DNA of 47,851 nucleotides from a virus, in IMG/VR virus record IMGVR_UViG_3300020020_000052, positions 1 through 47,851 of that record. One strand, 5' to 3'. Numbering within the stretch: the stretch's first letter is position 1; each line of letters opens with the position of its first letter. Below, one piece after another: positions 31,022-37,173 of this stretch. A model generated the notes under the pieces. It saw only the letters and a list, made by a program, of their open reading frames with translations, was not told the origin of the DNA and searched no databases. A program made the position numbers and the translations under genes.

Positions 31022-31305
31022 CCGTAGGCGAGATGATTGCGGCGCACCACTACCACGATGCGCGCCATATCTGGCTTGAAGATGGGCGGGCCCTTGCCGC
31101 GACCAAGCTAGGCAACGCGTTCACGATGTTTGCGAGCGCCCAGCTGGCGGCTGCGCAGGCGGATGAGCGGCTGGCGGCAAGTGAGCATCCCACTCCTGCG
31201 TCCGTAGCGAGCGTGCAGCGTCTGTGGGCCACGGCAGATATGTGGCAACGCGAATGCCGGACGCTGTTGAGCCTCGTAATACGCGAGCACGGAGATGTTG
31301 CATGA
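31018..31305 (+). CDS. Small helical protein, unknown
   Basis: 95 aa, Ala-rich helices (TMFASAQLAAAQADERLAA). ATGA overlaps at both ends, the second with the uracil-DNA glycosylase fusion gene. Not recognised. Confidence 0.5.
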   Translation: MTVGEMIAAHHYHDARHIWLEDGRALAATKLGNAFTMFASAQLAAAQADERLAASEHPTPASVASVQRLWATADMWQRECRTLLSLVIREHGDVA

Positions 31306-32387
31306 AACTTGATCCGTCAATCCCTGCGTTCGCTGATCGCAAAGTGCGGGCGGAGTTCCCGTTGCGCTCGCCCTGCGCCTTGGCGTTCGTGGGGGATGCG
31401 CCCGGAGCATCTGATGTCGCGAAGCTTAGGCCGTTCGTCGGGTCGGCGGGCCGGCTGTTCGACTCGATGCTCCGGGCGGCGCAAGTTGAGCGGGACCAGT
31501 GCTTCGTCGGTAACGTTTTTGAAAGCCAACTGTGCGAGGATAAGGCGAGTGCGCACCGGGCTCTGATCGGGGAAAAGGCGTGGCAGGTACTGTGGCGGGA
31601 GTCGCTGGAAAGGCTGGCGGACGAGCTGCGCCGGGCGGCGCCCACAGTGGTCATCCCTATGGGTTCGGTGGCCGTGAAGGCCCTATTGGACGATCCGAGG
31701 ATTGGCGCCTTGCGGGGCAGTGTGGCCATGGGCCGGGGCCCGTTCGCCCCGTGGAAGGTGCTGCCCACGCTACACCCGACGCATGTGCTGAAGGTGTGGA
31801 AGATGTATGCCGTCTGCATCGGGGATCTGATTCGCGCTTCGGGAGAGGCGGCGGACGGACCCCTGATTAAGTATCCGGAACGGTCGCTGCTGCTGGAGCC
31901 GACCATAGAAGAGGTGGAGGCGAGGTGTTACGGGGCGTATCAGCAGACCCCGTTGTTGAGCTGCGACATAGAAACAGGCTGGGGCCATATCCGCGGAGTG
32001 GCCTTCGCCCCTAGTCAGTACGAGGCGATGTATGTCCCATTCGTATCAACAACTGAACTCACACGGAGCTATTGGAAAGAGGTTGCAGACGAGCGTCGGG
32101 CGTGGCTGGCAGTCAAGGCGTTGCTGGAGAGTCCGACACCAAAGCTCGGCCAAAACTTTCCACTCTATGATGTACCGTGGCTTTTTAGGAAGGTCGGTAT
32201 TAGGCCCCGTAACGTGGCTCACGACCTCCGGCTGCTACACGCCGCACTCTATCCTGAGCTGCCTAAGTCCCTGGCATTTATGGGGTCTACATATTCACGG
32301 CAAGGGGCGTGGAAAGTCTGGGCGTCGTTCGGCGGCGAAAAGGTAAAGGACCGGGTCGAAGGAACAGGAGATAAGCGCGATGCGTAA
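31302..32387 (+). CDS. Uracil-DNA glycosylase-like domain fused to DNA polymerase 3'-5' exonuclease motifs I-II
   Basis: 361 aa from the ATG that overlaps the previous stop. Residues ~25-175 match family 4/5 uracil-DNA glycosylases: FVGDAPGASD (29-38), RPFVGSAG (43-50), VVIPMGS (116-122) and TLHPTH (156-161). Residues ~215-361 are the first part of a family A polymerase exonuclease: SCDIET with Asp222/Glu224 (Exo I), LGQNFPLYDVPWL with Asn285/Asp290 (Exo II) and HDLRLLHAALYPELPKSL. It stops at GDKRDA, before the Exo III Tyr-x3-Asp. That motif appears at the start of the polymerase gene 1.9 kb downstream. So the polymerase seems split, with its front half joined to a repair enzyme. Confidence 0.7.
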   Translation: MKLDPSIPAFADRKVRAEFPLRSPCALAFVGDAPGASDVAKLRPFVGSAGRLFDSMLRAAQVERDQCFVGNVFESQLCEDKASAHRALIGEKAWQVLWRESLERLADELRRAAPTVVIPMGSVAVKALLDDPRIGALRGSVAMGRGPFAPWKVLPTLHPTHVLKVWKMYAVCIGDLIRASGEAADGPLIKYPERSLLLEPTIEEVEARCYGAYQQTPLLSCDIETGWGHIRGVAFAPSQYEAMYVPFVSTTELTRSYWKEVADERRAWLAVKALLESPTPKLGQNFPLYDVPWLFRKVGIRPRNVAHDLRLLHAALYPELPKSLAFMGSTYSRQGAWKVWASFGGEKVKDRVEGTGDKRDA

Positions 32388-32616
32388 CGATCAATTGGCA
32401 TTCCCAGTGCCTGACGTGAGCAATGGCATGACTTTGCGCGACTACTTCGCAGCCCAGGCCTTGGCCGGACTACTAAGCGGAGCCTACGCAAAGGCTGCCC
32501 TGATGAGCGAAGTTGGCGCGGAGTCGATAGCAATTACCTGCTATGATTTGGCCGAGGACATGCTTATGGAGCGGGATGAGCGTGAGCGTGAGCTTGAGGA
32601 AAAGCGCGATGCGTAA
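32373..32616 (+). repeat. 15-bp direct repeat bordering the first of two paralogous genes
   Basis: AAGCGCGATGCGTAA occurs at 32373-32387 and 32602-32616. Each copy ends one gene as Lys-Arg-Asp-Ala-stop and at the same time starts the next as ATG CGT AA. The copies bound the 78-aa gene exactly, suggesting tandem duplication or insertion at this point. Confidence 0.7.
32380..32616 (+). CDS. Small phage protein with LRDYFAAQAL motif (paralogue 1)
   Basis: 78 aa. MTLRDYFAAQALAGLL then CYDLAEDMLMERDER is a small family common in phages of Proteobacteria (a helix pair ending in an AxAxxML-like helix); no function is known. Start overlaps the exonuclease-fusion stop, and GGAG lies 9 nt upstream. 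The next gene is a paralogue. Confidence 0.65.
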   Translation: MRNDQLAFPVPDVSNGMTLRDYFAAQALAGLLSGAYAKAALMSEVGAESIAITCYDLAEDMLMERDERERELEEKRDA

Positions 32617-32818
32617 GACCAGTGAAATGCTTATACGAGACGTCGTTGCAGCCCAGGCCTTACCTGCTGTAATTGCACTCTACGGCCCGCTCCTCAGAGA
32701 CGATATGACGGATGCGACGGTTACTAGGGCAATAGCCCTCTCTTGCTACGCAATAGCCGACTCAATGCTTAAGGTGGGGGAGGAAGAGCAGGCCAGGATT
32801 AAGCGCGGAGGGGTGTGA
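32609..32818 (+). CDS. Small phage protein (paralogue 2 of the LRDYFAAQAL family)
   Basis: 69 aa; IRDVVAAQALPAVI and CYAIADSMLKVGEEE align with the upstream paralogue. GAGG before the ATG. The shared border repeat and identical layout support duplication of one gene. Confidence 0.6.
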   Translation: MRKTSEMLIRDVVAAQALPAVIALYGPLLRDDMTDATVTRAIALSCYAIADSMLKVGEEEQARIKRGGV

Positions 32819-33024
32819 TGACTAGAACGGGTCGCGAACAGTTCATTTTACTGGGCGATGGGTATGTGTTCGTTCGCGGCCCCGATGCGTTGATGCTTTG
32901 CGAGACGCGGGATGGATTTCTCCATTGCCGGGATGCAATAAGATGGTATCTGGCCAGGGTCGACCCCCGGCTAGTGCGGTTAAACGCGGTGAGGAAGGCC
33001 GATGAACTGGATACACCTGTTTGA
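32818..33024 (+). CDS. Small protein, unknown
   Basis: 68 aa from the ATG overlapping the previous stop, GGAGGGG 4-5 nt upstream. Strand-rich start (REQFILLGDGYVFVRG). Not recognised. Contains element 32976-32987. Confidence 0.5.
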   Translation: MTRTGREQFILLGDGYVFVRGPDALMLCETRDGFLHCRDAIRWYLARVDPRLVRLNAVRKADELDTPV

Positions 33025-33328
33025 AGCGATTTTGCACCTTGCCATCGGCGGAGCGCTCGGTTATGTGATCGGCTACGGCATCGACGGCATAGAGCGTTTA
33101 AACATGAGCCGCCAGCTGGCCGATGCGTGCAACGAAGTCGAGCAGTTAGAAACCCTACTCGCGGAGGCGAAGCGATGCCACCAGGAAGTCCAAAGCCAGC
33201 TCCAACTGACCCAAGAACTGTGCAGCTTTCATTTCCACCAGCCCCTCGCATTCCCGTTCGATCCGTCAAAGCCGGGCCCTGTCCCGTTCCCCGTCGAATT
33301 CCTCGGCTACTCTTCGCGACTGCCGTAG
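33002..33328 (+). CDS. Membrane-anchored coiled-coil protein
   Basis: 108 aa; GAGGAAGG before the ATG. One Gly-rich membrane helix (LHLAIGGALGYVIGYGI, residues ~11-27) is followed by a helical coil (LADACNEVEQLETLLAEAK) and a Pro/Phe-rich end. The last half overlaps the next gene in another frame by 154 nt. The shape is like an inner-membrane spanin, but it is far from the lysis genes. Element 33094-33105 lies within. Confidence 0.45.
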   Translation: MNWIHLFEAILHLAIGGALGYVIGYGIDGIERLNMSRQLADACNEVEQLETLLAEAKRCHQEVQSQLQLTQELCSFHFHQPLAFPFDPSKPGPVPFPVEFLGYSSRLP

Positions 33329-33681
33329 TCCTCGCCGCCACCTTCATCTATTTCCTAGCGCCGACCAAAGCGCGCACCCACTCATTCTATGACGCGGCCT
33401 GTTGTTCCGACAACGATTGTGCCCCCGTCACCAAGATCGAACCCGCGCCCGACAAGGGCGGAGAGTTCTACACCTCAATCCATGGCAGGGCGTTCGTGCC
33501 CTATGAGTTCAAGCCGCGCCGGCCCGCGCCGGACATGGGCGTGCACGTGTGCCTCACGCCGGGCGCCGCGGACTGGGCGGCCTATGGTGTAAGCGGCGGC
33601 GCCGGGGAGTATGGTCCGGGTCCACAGCCTCCGTTCCTTGAGCCTACAGTGCGTTGTATCTACGATTCGCGAGGTATGTGA
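33175..33681 (+). CDS. Membrane-anchored Cys-rich periplasmic-type protein
   Basis: 168 aa from the ATG at 33175 (GGAGGCG 6 nt upstream). After a Pro-rich cytoplasmic part comes one membrane helix (LLFATAVVLAATFIYFLA, residues ~44-61). The exported domain has SFYDAACCSDNDCAPV, a later CL and a final RCIYD, suited to disulphides. The CCSDxDCAPV motif is familiar from exported proteins of Rhizobiales and their phages, which supports an alphaproteobacterial host. Possible role in altering the host envelope; inferred. Confidence 0.6.
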   Translation: MPPGSPKPAPTDPRTVQLSFPPAPRIPVRSVKAGPCPVPRRIPRLLFATAVVLAATFIYFLAPTKARTHSFYDAACCSDNDCAPVTKIEPAPDKGGEFYTSIHGRAFVPYEFKPRRPAPDMGVHVCLTPGAADWAAYGVSGGAGEYGPGPQPPFLEPTVRCIYDSRGM

Positions 33682-34107
33682 ATGCTAGTTATCAGGGTCG
33701 AGCTGTGGTCGGCCGTCACGGGACTGAAGACCGAAATCGCCCGCATGGACATATCCAACGTGGGCGACACGCCGGGGGCCGGCAGTACCCAGGTGTGCAA
33801 CTACCAGACGCGGGCCTACTTCGGCCGGGACAAGACCATGCTGGACGAATCCATGCGGGTCCAGCGCACAAGCCGGACCGGCGCGGTGGCGGGCTTCCAT
33901 CGGCAGCGGAATCATGTTTGGAATCTGGTGGCCCTGGCGCTTCAGGCTATGGGCTATGGGGCTTATGAGGAGTTTCCCAATGTTGTTACAACGGACGCAG
34001 GAACTGATCCTCGAACTCTTGAACGTGCTTCGCGAAGGCGACACAAGCGTCGACGGGCTGAAGCTGATCGTCGAGGTGCCGACGAACCAGGGCCAGTTCG
34101 TGATTGA
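33682..34107 (+). CDS. Conserved small phage protein with an unusual C-terminal extension
   Basis: 141 aa starting directly after the previous stop. LVIRVELWSAVTGLKTEIARM and a later VWNLVALALQAMGYG match a small family common in phages, usually ending at about residue 100. Here the frame continues 40-odd residues into an Arg-rich tail that overlaps the next gene by 128 nt, so the normal stop is probably lost or a frameshift exists. Function unknown. Confidence 0.5.
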   Translation: MLVIRVELWSAVTGLKTEIARMDISNVGDTPGAGSTQVCNYQTRAYFGRDKTMLDESMRVQRTSRTGAVAGFHRQRNHVWNLVALALQAMGYGAYEEFPNVVTTDAGTDPRTLERASRRRHKRRRAEADRRGADEPGPVRD

Positions 34108-34300
34108 GCGCCAGCTGAAGGCTGACCTAACGCCGCTGATTACGTTGGCGGAGGTCGACTTCGGGTCGATGGAAATGGACTTGAAGGTGGCTGGTGTTCC
34201 GGTGCGGCTCGTGAGCCAGGAGAGCATCGAGGATTACCAGCGAGAGTTGCGGGAGATGCGCGGTAAGCTGCGCCTCATCCGCGCGAAATACGGGAGATAG
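33980..34300 (+). CDS. Small helical protein before the polymerase
   Basis: 106 aa; GAGGAG 7 nt before the ATG. Helix-strand start (LLQRTQELILELLNVLREG), strand-rich middle and a charged final helix (YQRELREMRGKLRLI). Not recognised. The polymerase GTG follows 3 nt after its stop. Confidence 0.5.
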   Translation: MLLQRTQELILELLNVLREGDTSVDGLKLIVEVPTNQGQFVIERQLKADLTPLITLAEVDFGSMEMDLKVAGVPVRLVSQESIEDYQRELREMRGKLRLIRAKYGR

Positions 34301-34303
34301 ATC

Positions 34304-36103
34304 GTGAACGATATACCTAAAAATATACTGGAAATGGCATGGACGGAGGTGTTGCCAACTTCCGTCACCCTGGAAGAGGCCCAGGAGTTGCCGGTGGCAG
34401 GGGATAGAAGGTTCAACGCCTATGCTTGCTTGGACACGACCGGGACCCTGGAGGTGTTCGAGGTGTTGCGACCGCGTTTAGACGCGGACCAGCTTCGTAT
34501 GTATAAGTGGAGCCTCGCCCAGTCGTCACCGGCCCTGGCCATGACCCTGCGGGGGTGCCGGATCGACGTTCCGTTGAAAGAGGAGCGCCGCAAGCTCGTC
34601 ACCAAGGAAGTCGAGGCGGCGTGCCGGGACCTACAGACCTATGAGGTGGTGACCGCCATCTGGGACGGCGAGGAGTTGGAAACCGGCAAGTGCGAGAAGG
34701 GCGAGCGCCTGGAGCTGGAATCGGGGCTCTGCACTGATGGCAAGCGTCACAGCTGGCCCAAGAACTGGAAGGCCGACTTCGACACCGTGTGTAAGAAGTG
34801 CGGGACCCGGAGGCGGACCTTGACTGTTGGAGAGGCGGCCGACAAGCACCACACATGGCCGCGCGCAGCGCGAGGGGCCCCGCCACTTGACCCACGCAAG
34901 ATGCGTTGCGTCTTGTGTGGGATCGCGCGGACCAAGCCGAAGCCCTATGAGCCGACTTCACCCGTCCAGACCAAGCATTTGCTTTTCGATTTGCTGAAGG
35001 CCCCGGAACAGCACAACAAGGACGGCAACCTGTCCACGGGCAAAGAGGCCCTGGAGCGTATCGCCATCCGCAAGCCCAAGCTGATGGACCTCTGTTACAA
35101 GCTGCTGAATTTCCGCGACCTCGACAAGCAAAAGCAATTCCTCGAATGCCGGCTGAGCCCGGTGGGCCGCTTCCACGCCAGCTTTAACGTCGCCACGCCC
35201 TGGACCGGGCGGTGGTCGTCCAGCAAGGACCCCTTTGGACAGGGGTCCAATATGCAGAATATTGCGGAGCGGCACCGGGCGATCTTCCTAGCTGATCCGG
35301 GCAAGGAACTGTTCTACGCCGACTTGAAGACGGCCGAGTCCATGCTTGTGGCGTACATGAGCGGTGACGAGGCCTACATCGAAGCTCACAAGGGCGACGT
35401 CCATACCTTTGTGTGTCGGAAGCTGTGGCCGGACTTGGCCTGGACCGGGGACATCAAAAAGGACAAGGCTATCGCGGCGTCCACGAACCCGCCCTGGGAC
35501 CTCGCGCCCGGCCATGATCTGCGGTTCCAGGCGAAGCGCGTGCAGCACGGGTCGAACTACGGACTTAGTCCGCGAGGCCTAGGCTTCCTTGCGCGTATCC
35601 CCTTGAAGCATGCCGAGGCGGCACAGGCCGCGTACTTTGAGGCCTTCCCCCGGATTCTGGAGGGACAAGCGCACATAATCCAGCGGGTCAGCGACAGCCT
35701 CAACATTTACACGGCGCTGCGCCGCGTGGTCCGGCTGTTCGGCCGTCCCTGGGACTCCGCCACGCATAAGCAGGGGCTGGCCTTCGGACCGCAGGGCGGC
35801 GTGGGCGACATTCTCGACATCGGCCTGTGGCGCCTGTGGGACCGCTACGATCCGGCCGTTCTGGAGCTGCTGGCCCAAGTGCATGACGCCGTACTGGGGC
35901 AGTCTGATCCGGCGGAGCGTGACTTCGTGACACATGCCCTAAAGGAAGCGATGACGGTAAAGGTCCCGGTCGAGGACATCCGGGGGACGTGGCGCGAGTG
36001 CGTCATTCCCGTCGAGGTGGCCTTTGGGACAAACTGGGGCAAGTTCAACGACAACCCGAAAAAGGGCGCCCTCAATCTGTTGGGCTTGAGAGAGGTTGCA
36101 TGA
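34304..36103 (+). CDS. Family A DNA polymerase (Exo III motif plus polymerase domain) with zinc-finger insertion
   Basis: 599 aa, GTG start with GGGAG upstream. Residues 35-50 (RFNAYACLDTTGTLEV) hold the Tyr40-x3-Asp44 of Exo III, but Exo I and II lie in the gene at 31302. TLRGCRIDV (81-89) opens the polymerase domain. About 120-215 is an insertion with two similar zinc-binding units: His149-SWP...Cys163-x2-Cys166 and His183-TWP...Cys202-x2-Cys205. Then come TGRWSSS (301-307), motif A YADLKTAES (Asp340, Glu345), motif B KRVQHGSNYG (Lys411, Tyr419) and motif C QVHDA (His527-Asp528). Motif A usually reads DYSQIE and motif C HDE, so both deviate. It should replicate the phage genome. Confidence 0.8.
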   Translation: MNDIPKNILEMAWTEVLPTSVTLEEAQELPVAGDRRFNAYACLDTTGTLEVFEVLRPRLDADQLRMYKWSLAQSSPALAMTLRGCRIDVPLKEERRKLVTKEVEAACRDLQTYEVVTAIWDGEELETGKCEKGERLELESGLCTDGKRHSWPKNWKADFDTVCKKCGTRRRTLTVGEAADKHHTWPRAARGAPPLDPRKMRCVLCGIARTKPKPYEPTSPVQTKHLLFDLLKAPEQHNKDGNLSTGKEALERIAIRKPKLMDLCYKLLNFRDLDKQKQFLECRLSPVGRFHASFNVATPWTGRWSSSKDPFGQGSNMQNIAERHRAIFLADPGKELFYADLKTAESMLVAYMSGDEAYIEAHKGDVHTFVCRKLWPDLAWTGDIKKDKAIAASTNPPWDLAPGHDLRFQAKRVQHGSNYGLSPRGLGFLARIPLKHAEAAQAAYFEAFPRILEGQAHIIQRVSDSLNIYTALRRVVRLFGRPWDSATHKQGLAFGPQGGVGDILDIGLWRLWDRYDPAVLELLAQVHDAVLGQSDPAERDFVTHALKEAMTVKVPVEDIRGTWRECVIPVEVAFGTNWGKFNDNPKKGALNLLGLREVA

Positions 36104-37173
36104 CGGCGGTTGCGAGGAAGTCAAGCGCGCATAAACGCGCACCAAAGCGTGGGTCGACGCGGCGCCCGAAGCGGGTTAGTGTGCCGGCCCCACCAACAAG
36201 GAGCCGCCCAATGCCACCACGTGACCAGAGACGGGTCACCGATCAAGAATTTGCCATGATGTTCCAGACCCACGGGGCAGTGGGACTGGCGAAAATTCTG
36301 AACCAGACCGAGCGCAACATTCACATGCGCCGGAACAACGTCGAGGCCCGGCTAGGGGTCCGGCTGGTGCCGCCGCCCAAGGGGGAGCTGCACATCGCCC
36401 CCACTGACGCGCCGATGCTGGAGATAGAGCACAAGGACGGCGTCGCGCTCGTGGCTAGCGACGGTCACTATTGGCCGGGCCCGGCAACGACCGCGCACCG
36501 GGCGCTAGTCAAGCTTTCGCGTGACCTGAAGCCGAAACTTGTCATCTTTAATGGTGACGCGTTCGATGGTGCGACGATCAGCCGCCATCCGCCGATAGGG
36601 TGGGAGAGCCTTCCGACCGTTGACGATGAGCTGGCGGCGGTGCAAGAACGCCTCGGCGAAATCGTCAAGGTAACTCCCCGTGCCCGACACATCTGGCCTC
36701 TCGGAAATCACGACGCCCGGTTCAACACCAAGCTCGCCGTCGCCGCCCCCGAGTTCCGCGACGTTTCCGGAACGCGGCTGGTGCATCATTTCCCCGACTG
36801 GGAACCGTGCTGGGCCGTCTCGCTGGGTGGCCGTCGCGGCGCTGTCATCAAACACCGCTGGAAAGGCGGCATACACGCGCCGCACAACAACACGGTCGGC
36901 GCGGGTCGAACGATGGTCACGGGACATCTACACTCCCAGAAGTGCACGCCCTACACCGACTACAACGGCACGCGCTGGGGCGTGGATACGGGCTGTATTG
37001 CGTGGCCCGGCGGCCGGCAATTCGGCTACACCGAAGCAAATCCCCTAAACTGGCGCTCCGGCTTCGCCGTGCTGACCTGGGCCGGCGGAGAGTTGCTTCC
37101 ACCTGAGCTGGTGACGGTGCTGGATGAGGAGAAGGGTACTGTGTCGTTCAGGGGGAATGTGATCCGTGTCTAG
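36100..37173 (+). CDS. HTH-fused calcineurin-like phosphoesterase
   Basis: 357 aa from the ATG overlapping the polymerase stop. The first ~40 residues are very basic. Residues ~48-85 look like a helix-turn-helix (GAVGLAKILNQTERNI). The catalytic part has the metal motifs SDGH (120-123), NGD (151-153), GNHD (202-205), His252 and GHLH (275-278). Substrate may be DNA, as in Mre11/SbcD, or a nucleotide. Place after the polymerase favours a DNA role. Element 36127-36138 is near its start. Confidence 0.7.
   Translation: MTAVARKSSAHKRAPKRGSTRRPKRVSVPAPPTRSRPMPPRDQRRVTDQEFAMMFQTHGAVGLAKILNQTERNIHMRRNNVEARLGVRLVPPPKGELHIAPTDAPMLEIEHKDGVALVASDGHYWPGPATTAHRALVKLSRDLKPKLVIFNGDAFDGATISRHPPIGWESLPTVDDELAAVQERLGEIVKVTPRARHIWPLGNHDARFNTKLAVAAPEFRDVSGTRLVHHFPDWEPCWAVSLGGRRGAVIKHRWKGGIHAPHNNTVGAGRTMVTGHLHSQKCTPYTDYNGTRWGVDTGCIAWPGGRQFGYTEANPLNWRSGFAVLTWAGGELLPPELVTVLDEEKGTVSFRGNVIRV

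Follow-up and report, generated by a model that had tools for sequence, protein, structure and literature searches.

Does a DNA polymerase gene that is separated into two frames by other genes still encode one enzyme? The question is raised by a 47,851-base virus record of IMG/VR (IMGVR_UViG_3300020020_000052; this whole stretch is referred to as the window), in which a family A DNA polymerase is divided between two genes, P0001 (the N-half) and P0002 (the C-half). An initial annotation had proposed either an invasion that left two working pieces or a naturally two-part enzyme. We conclude in favor of the latter. Judged by sequence comparison, the locus most probably holds a long-established, stable enzyme in two parts rather than a damaged gene, because the same split occurs at the same site in a large clade and each half lacks something that the other supplies.

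Two genes with complementary parts of a family A polymerase

The features of the locus are collected in Table 1. The initial annotation had read Exo I and Exo II in the first gene, and Exo III followed by the polymerase domain in the second. Both descriptions held: P0001 has the expected frame and residues and ends in GDKRDA, while the P0002 frame opens just ahead of Exo III and matches the Pfam family DNA_pol_A (PF00476, E = 1.8e-30). The two halves match consecutive parts, 481-785 and 805-1232, of the profile PHROG 17 'DNA polymerase' (length 1445). A Shine-Dalgarno-like GGAG lies upstream of the P0001 start, and a GGGAG lies upstream of the P0002 start, which is a GTG codon. Exonuclease and polymerase usually share one polypeptide in family A, although this is not strictly defining; in the window and in 128 related loci they occupy separate open reading frames (ORFs) with their own starts. 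The full DEDDy set of Exo I, II and III is obtained solely from both proteins together. Polymerase motifs A (Asp), B (Arg...Lys) and C (His-Asp), which place the enzyme in family A, are intact, their residues being unchanged in every row with letters.

By fold and by its match to PF03167, the N-terminal domain of P0001 belongs to the uracil-DNA glycosylase (UDG) superfamily and is family 4/UdgX-like, a domain that the initial annotation had not noted. With regard to the cysteine ligands of the [4Fe-4S] cluster in family 4 enzymes, some Cys columns are conserved in the N-half, but the CxxC of several one-piece relatives is absent from the N-terminus of the window protein.

Table 1. Positions of the two polymerase genes, their motifs and the intervening features in the window
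Feature	Coordinates	Strand	Description
N-half gene, P0001, 361 aa	31302..32387	+	UDG-superfamily domain, then first part of DEDDy 3'-5' exonuclease domain (Exo I, Exo II)
UDG superfamily domain, P0001 residues 27-167	31380..31802	+	PF03167, E = 1.4e-15; best Foldseek matches 1l9g, UdgX and family 4 UDGs
Exo I, D222-x-E224 (LSCDIET)	31965..31973	+	D and E identical in 133/133 rows with letters
Exo II, N285 ... Y289-D290 (GQNFPLYD)	32154..32171	+	N in 134/134 and D in 134/135 rows with letters
N-half C-terminal tail	32331..32384	+	Ends KRDA; clade consensus T-I-K-[RK]-[DE]-[DEA]; low pLDDT; aligns with TITFEE of E. coli Pol I
Repeat copy 1	32370..32387	+	End of N-half and start region of paralogue 1
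Small gene, paralogue 1	32380..32616	+	phrog_2201 (function not known), E = 1.9e-12; starts within the last codons of the P0001 gene
Spacer, 1,916 bp	32388..34303	+	About seven small plus-strand ORFs, unrelated genes; content differs from relatives
Repeat copy 2	32599..32616	+	End of paralogue 1 and start region of paralogue 2
Small gene, paralogue 2	32609..32818	+	phrog_2201, E = 2.3e-7; aligned with paralogue 1
C-half gene, P0002, 599 aa	34304..36103	+	Exo III helix, thumb, palm and fingers of family A DNA polymerase
Exo III, Y40-x3-D44 of P0002	34421..34435	+	Y and D identical in 115/115 rows with letters
Cys-rich zinc-ribbon-like insert, P0002 residues ~122-216	34667..34951	+	Thumb region; C...GKxHxWPR...CxxCG
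Polymerase motif A Asp, D340	35321..35323	+	116/116 rows
Polymerase motif C His-Asp, H527-D528	35882..35887	+	115/115 rows with letters

The same break is conserved in a large clade

IMG/VR was scanned with each half and then with alignments of the halves, and halves were classed by stop-to-stop frames. One alignment scan returned at least 560 relatives and the other 422, and the best 80 of each, ranked by similarity to the split queries, were analyzed. After de-duplication, the halves lay in separate frames at 128 loci, 8 loci had the N-half only, and 3 were one-piece (L018-L020, distant phages fetched as outgroups). A scan of genome contigs gave seven loci.

The breakpoint was the same in all split loci. 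The N-half stops soon after an invariant Trp-Lys with a conserved tail at its C-terminus, most often ending in KRDE (31), KRDA (15) or KRDD (15), and the C-half starts ~20-40 residues ahead of Exo III. Shine-Dalgarno motifs precede the C-half start in 49/127 loci versus a 15% background, which is supportive but weak. The one cultured phage found with the same split is Caulobacter phage Kuura, where two small genes lie between gene 029, annotated as 'hypothetical protein', and gene 026, annotated as 'DNA polymerase'. The Kuura paper reports a DNA polymerase without mention of a split (PMC9959647).

In pairs of relatives close enough to measure, the ratio of nonsynonymous to synonymous substitution rates (dN/dS) was mostly 0.04-0.17 for both halves, values that indicate purifying selection on each. 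A pseudogene reading was rejected since the frames are intact and dN/dS is low. N-half and C-half identities were correlated with r = 0.90 over 6,328 pairs, as expected if the two genes are inherited together.

A tree was built from 83 polymerase domains, including 53 split and 26 one-piece rows. All but one of the split rows (52/53) formed a single clade with a support of 100 in the Shimodaira-Hasegawa-like approximate likelihood ratio test (SH-aLRT). The 26 one-piece rows formed the main fused group (support 100), apart from the split clade and sister to it. These intact homologues, for which the initial annotation had suggested a search, were sought separately: 78 of 86 loci were fused, and the others were truncated, had their cut at another site or gave no detectable match to UDG. 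The polymerase gene of this UDG-exonuclease-polymerase family has been broken repeatedly in phages, with cuts after Exo III (L182), inside the polymerase domain (L183 and L256) and between UDG and exonuclease (L262).

Predicted structures: an incomplete exonuclease in P0001 and one fold for the joined halves

An AlphaFold2 model of P0001, built with 76 sequences in the alignment, had a predicted local distance difference test score (pLDDT) of 91.3 and a predicted template modelling score (pTM) of 0.87. Its last ordered element is a helix at residues 337-343, residues 344-356 fall below a pLDDT of 50, and its Foldseek match to Klenow covers only 155 columns. A complete exonuclease within one protein, which the initial annotation had named as evidence against a split site, was not found: the P0001 model lacks the Exo III helix, and P0002 lacks Exo I and Exo II.

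The joint exonuclease fold was modeled with a relative, L163, in which the two genes abut in frame, by reading the single TAA as Gly to give an 842-residue product. This linked product had a pLDDT of 93.5 and a pTM of 0.90; confidence was low only at residues 333-340, where the halves join, and at the very C-terminus. The product aligned to E. coli Pol I and Klenow over ~650 columns with a template modelling score, by target, of 0.73-0.77. The prediction thus shows the two pieces making one Pol I fold.

Profile alignment with E. coli Pol I and Klenow puts all three Exo motifs at their known positions. The C-half starts ~20 residues before Klenow Y497, and the tail falls on TITFEE at about residues 470-475 (counted from Y497), the alignment being uncertain in that loop. 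The Klenow residue F473 stacks on the base at the 3' terminus in the exonuclease site (PMC8867116). If the loop is aligned correctly, the break would therefore adjoin the exonuclease pocket.

The spacer is variable and its repeat belongs to a duplicated gene

The initial annotation had counted seven small genes in the 1.9-kb gap, and a chain of about that many ORFs was found. Among relatives, the distance from the N-half stop to the C-half start ranges from -4 bp (L012, with a shared ATGA) to 3,296 bp (L015), with a median of 318; it is at most 20 bp in 30/127 loci, and only one distance exceeds that of the window. In ~25 relatives the N-half stop codon overlaps or adjoins the C-half start codon, and in L163, L116, L097 and L088 the distance is -1 or 0, so that the stop is followed directly by an in-frame start. 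The genes found between the halves of relatives include DUF7768 in 12 loci, HNH endonucleases in ~7-9 and DUF7220 in 6, and in single cases ribonucleotide reductase, MazG, a phosphoesterase or, as in L059, two tRNAs. DUF7768, which is nucleoside 2-deoxyribosyltransferase-like by PHROG, is the commonest (for example L143, 5002-5406). The spacer genes of the window are unknowns of phrog_2201 and phrog_8231.

The 15-bp repeat reported beside the two paralogues was also present. Its two copies match at 17/18 bases, and since an exact 15-mer repeat arose in only 6/400 simulated sequences of the same length, it is more than chance. It forms the ribosome-binding and start region common to the two tandem paralogues. 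The repeat spans the translation start of each (32380 and 32609) and therefore marks a local duplication of the neighboring gene. Among the relatives whose junctions were inspected, none showed an equivalent repeat. We considered whether the repeat bounds an insertion responsible for the split and rejected this, as it is the start region of a duplicated gene and is missing from those junctions. KRDA at the end of P0001 belongs to the tail shared by the whole clade, from which we infer that the other repeat copy is the derived one. Judging from the relatives, the 1.9-kb spacer is later, replaceable cargo and not the cause of the split in the window genome.

Comparison with known split and one-piece polymerases

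The one-piece UDG-exonuclease-polymerase enzymes of phages, namely those of Microcystis phage Mel-JY34 and of MW202489, and SPO1 gp31, are homologous to the halves and have the same domain order. The same three domains in the same order are given for PaBG gp205 by its paper (PMC7412058). Unlike the polymerase of the window, these enzymes are encoded in a single reading frame; that of SPO1 has an annotated intron.

Split phage polymerases are already known, but in the family A cases compared here the cut lies elsewhere. LUZ24-like phages (Bruynoghevirus) likewise have a two-gene family A enzyme, 'DNA polymerase part I/II', with the genes ~2.3 kb apart and small genes between them (PMC3890496). 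LUZ24 gp25, however, carries all three exonuclease motifs (Exo III being EYCLQD), so that its cut is at the exonuclease-polymerase boundary. P0001 does not have such a complete exonuclease. LUZ24 also lacks a UDG domain, and its split was ascribed to an intron. MEP401-type phages of OM43 resemble the present clade in that a split family A polymerase is kept in most members (PMC10580990); they differ in that the cut is inside the polymerase domain and the exonuclease is wholly in the first part. In the open-access literature, we found no account of a cut between Exo II and Exo III in a family A polymerase, nor of a split fixed across such a clade.

The T4-related Aeromonas phages 25 and 44RR have a split polymerase, gp43A/43B; gp43A and gp43B of phage 25 co-purify and have polymerase activity, and NrdA of phage Aeh1, though split, is fully active (PMC2988022). 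Both splits are associated with free-standing homing endonucleases (PMC2988022). These cases concern a family B polymerase and a ribonucleotide reductase in few phages, in contrast to a family A polymerase cut in its exonuclease domain in a large clade. By analogy, the co-purification of gp43A/43B and the activity of split NrdA make assembly in trans plausible here.

Weighing the explanations

We believe, with a probability of about 0.85, that P0001 and P0002 are the subunits of a single replicative family A polymerase, an ancient heterodimer in which both chains contribute to the proofreading site. The shared breakpoint, catalytic conservation, purifying selection, joint divergence, confident joint fold and single split clade were each computed here. 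Each subunit would be translated from its own start. Subunit 1 would combine the UDG-like domain with the initial three-quarters of the 3'-5' exonuclease fold, including Exo I and Exo II, and subunit 2 the Exo III helix with the whole polymerase. On physical association, the Exo III helix of subunit 2 would complete the exonuclease fold begun in subunit 1. Subunit 1 would supply the metal-binding residues D222, E224 and D290, and subunit 2 the Tyr/Asp pair Y40/D44. Subunit 1 would be needed for proofreading. The split would go back to a single ancient cut in the loop that precedes the Exo III helix, for which a free-standing homing endonuclease may have been responsible. Most simply, this cut happened once and was fixed, and spacer genes were gained and lost afterwards. 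The origin may lie in an early invasion, for instance one by an HNH endonuclease; the presence of HNH genes in some spacers is consistent with a homing-endonuclease origin as in T4-related phages without demonstrating one. Splits made by homing endonucleases usually have a scattered distribution. In the present clade, a single break seems to have reached fixation.

Several points weigh against this view. One split locus, L180, lies outside the split clade, beside the fused L184. It is on a Pseudomonadota metagenome-assembled contig (5959-8896), has a 205-bp spacer, is split near the same exonuclease position and groups with one-piece enzymes. It looks like a possible second, independent and convergent break near the same site. 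The ranking of relatives by similarity to the split queries could have hidden rare re-fused members. The joint model, made from the halves of a relative linked by reading a stop as Gly, fits one fold and is not proof of binding between separate chains. The association and activity of the two proteins are themselves predictions.

It is improbable that the halves work independently, with P0001 a self-sufficient exonuclease whose KRD tail replaces Exo III and which also recognizes uracil, and P0002 an exonuclease-deficient polymerase with a vestigial Exo III. The tail is conserved as T-I-K-R-D-E and contains Asp/Glu, P0001 alone folds confidently up to the tail, and the genes are far apart in many loci, all of which would suit such a division. 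However, disorder is predicted for the tail, and the position four residues ahead of its Asp is occupied by neither Tyr nor His. The final helix is missing from the exonuclease part of P0001, and the invariance of the Exo III Tyr and Asp would be unexpected for a vestige. Very little favors the initial annotation's other proposal, a recent insertion of the 1.9-kb gene block that broke the gene in the window genome and left pieces that are working or decaying. The small genes between the halves and the short repeat by the N-half end first suggested it, but the same break occurs in 128 loci with spacer contents that vary among nearly all relatives and are sometimes lacking altogether, the repeat covers the start regions of two small paralogues, and both halves are under purifying selection in close relatives. 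We consider it least probable of all that a joined product is made after all, by RNA splicing of a group I or II intron or by a split intein. Phage polymerase genes with introns or split inteins do exist (SPO1; MIJ3 PolB, PMC6892783), and a look for spliced RNA at the junction had been suggested as a check. An Rfam search found no intron in the window or in 11 relatives, the spacers are coding and hold genes such as ribonucleotide reductase, MazG and tRNAs, stop and start codons abut or overlap in ~25 relatives, and some spacers have zero length. No intein-like extension was found on either half, and the N-half tails and C-half heads are too short for intein domains.

Within the favored explanation of a two-subunit polymerase, it is doubtful, though less so than any of these alternatives, that the split is functional and not just tolerated. 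The polymerase subunit could then work without proofreading, and the UDG-exonuclease subunit would dock to complete the site, with the tail T-I-K-R-D-E-COOH as the docking element and its free C-terminus beside the exonuclease pocket.

Inserts and neighboring frames

The Cys-rich, zinc-ribbon-like insert in the thumb region is specific to the subclade of the window and was found in 9 of its loci, the copy in the window being longer with additional Cys motifs. The thioredoxin-binding domain of T7 polymerase is also in the thumb. By this analogy a processivity role may be considered, as a lead only. At L059 (8800-11244) the C-half has a ~300-aa insert in the polymerase domain that matches LAGLIDADG (PF14528) and is probably an intein. 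In the window, a frame at 35989-37173 overlaps the end of the polymerase gene and matches the metallophosphoesterase family PF00149 weakly, under the curated cut-off.

Implications

The polymerase described here would be a natural split exonuclease, with a proofreading site on two separately encoded chains that has been kept through deep divergence in a large phage clade. Leaving out one subunit would offer a way to separate polymerase from proofreading in a family A enzyme. For annotation, the first half of such an enzyme would match UDG models, while the second half resembles a polymerase without an exonuclease. If the split is functional, the fidelity of the replicase or its response to uracil would depend on subunit supply.

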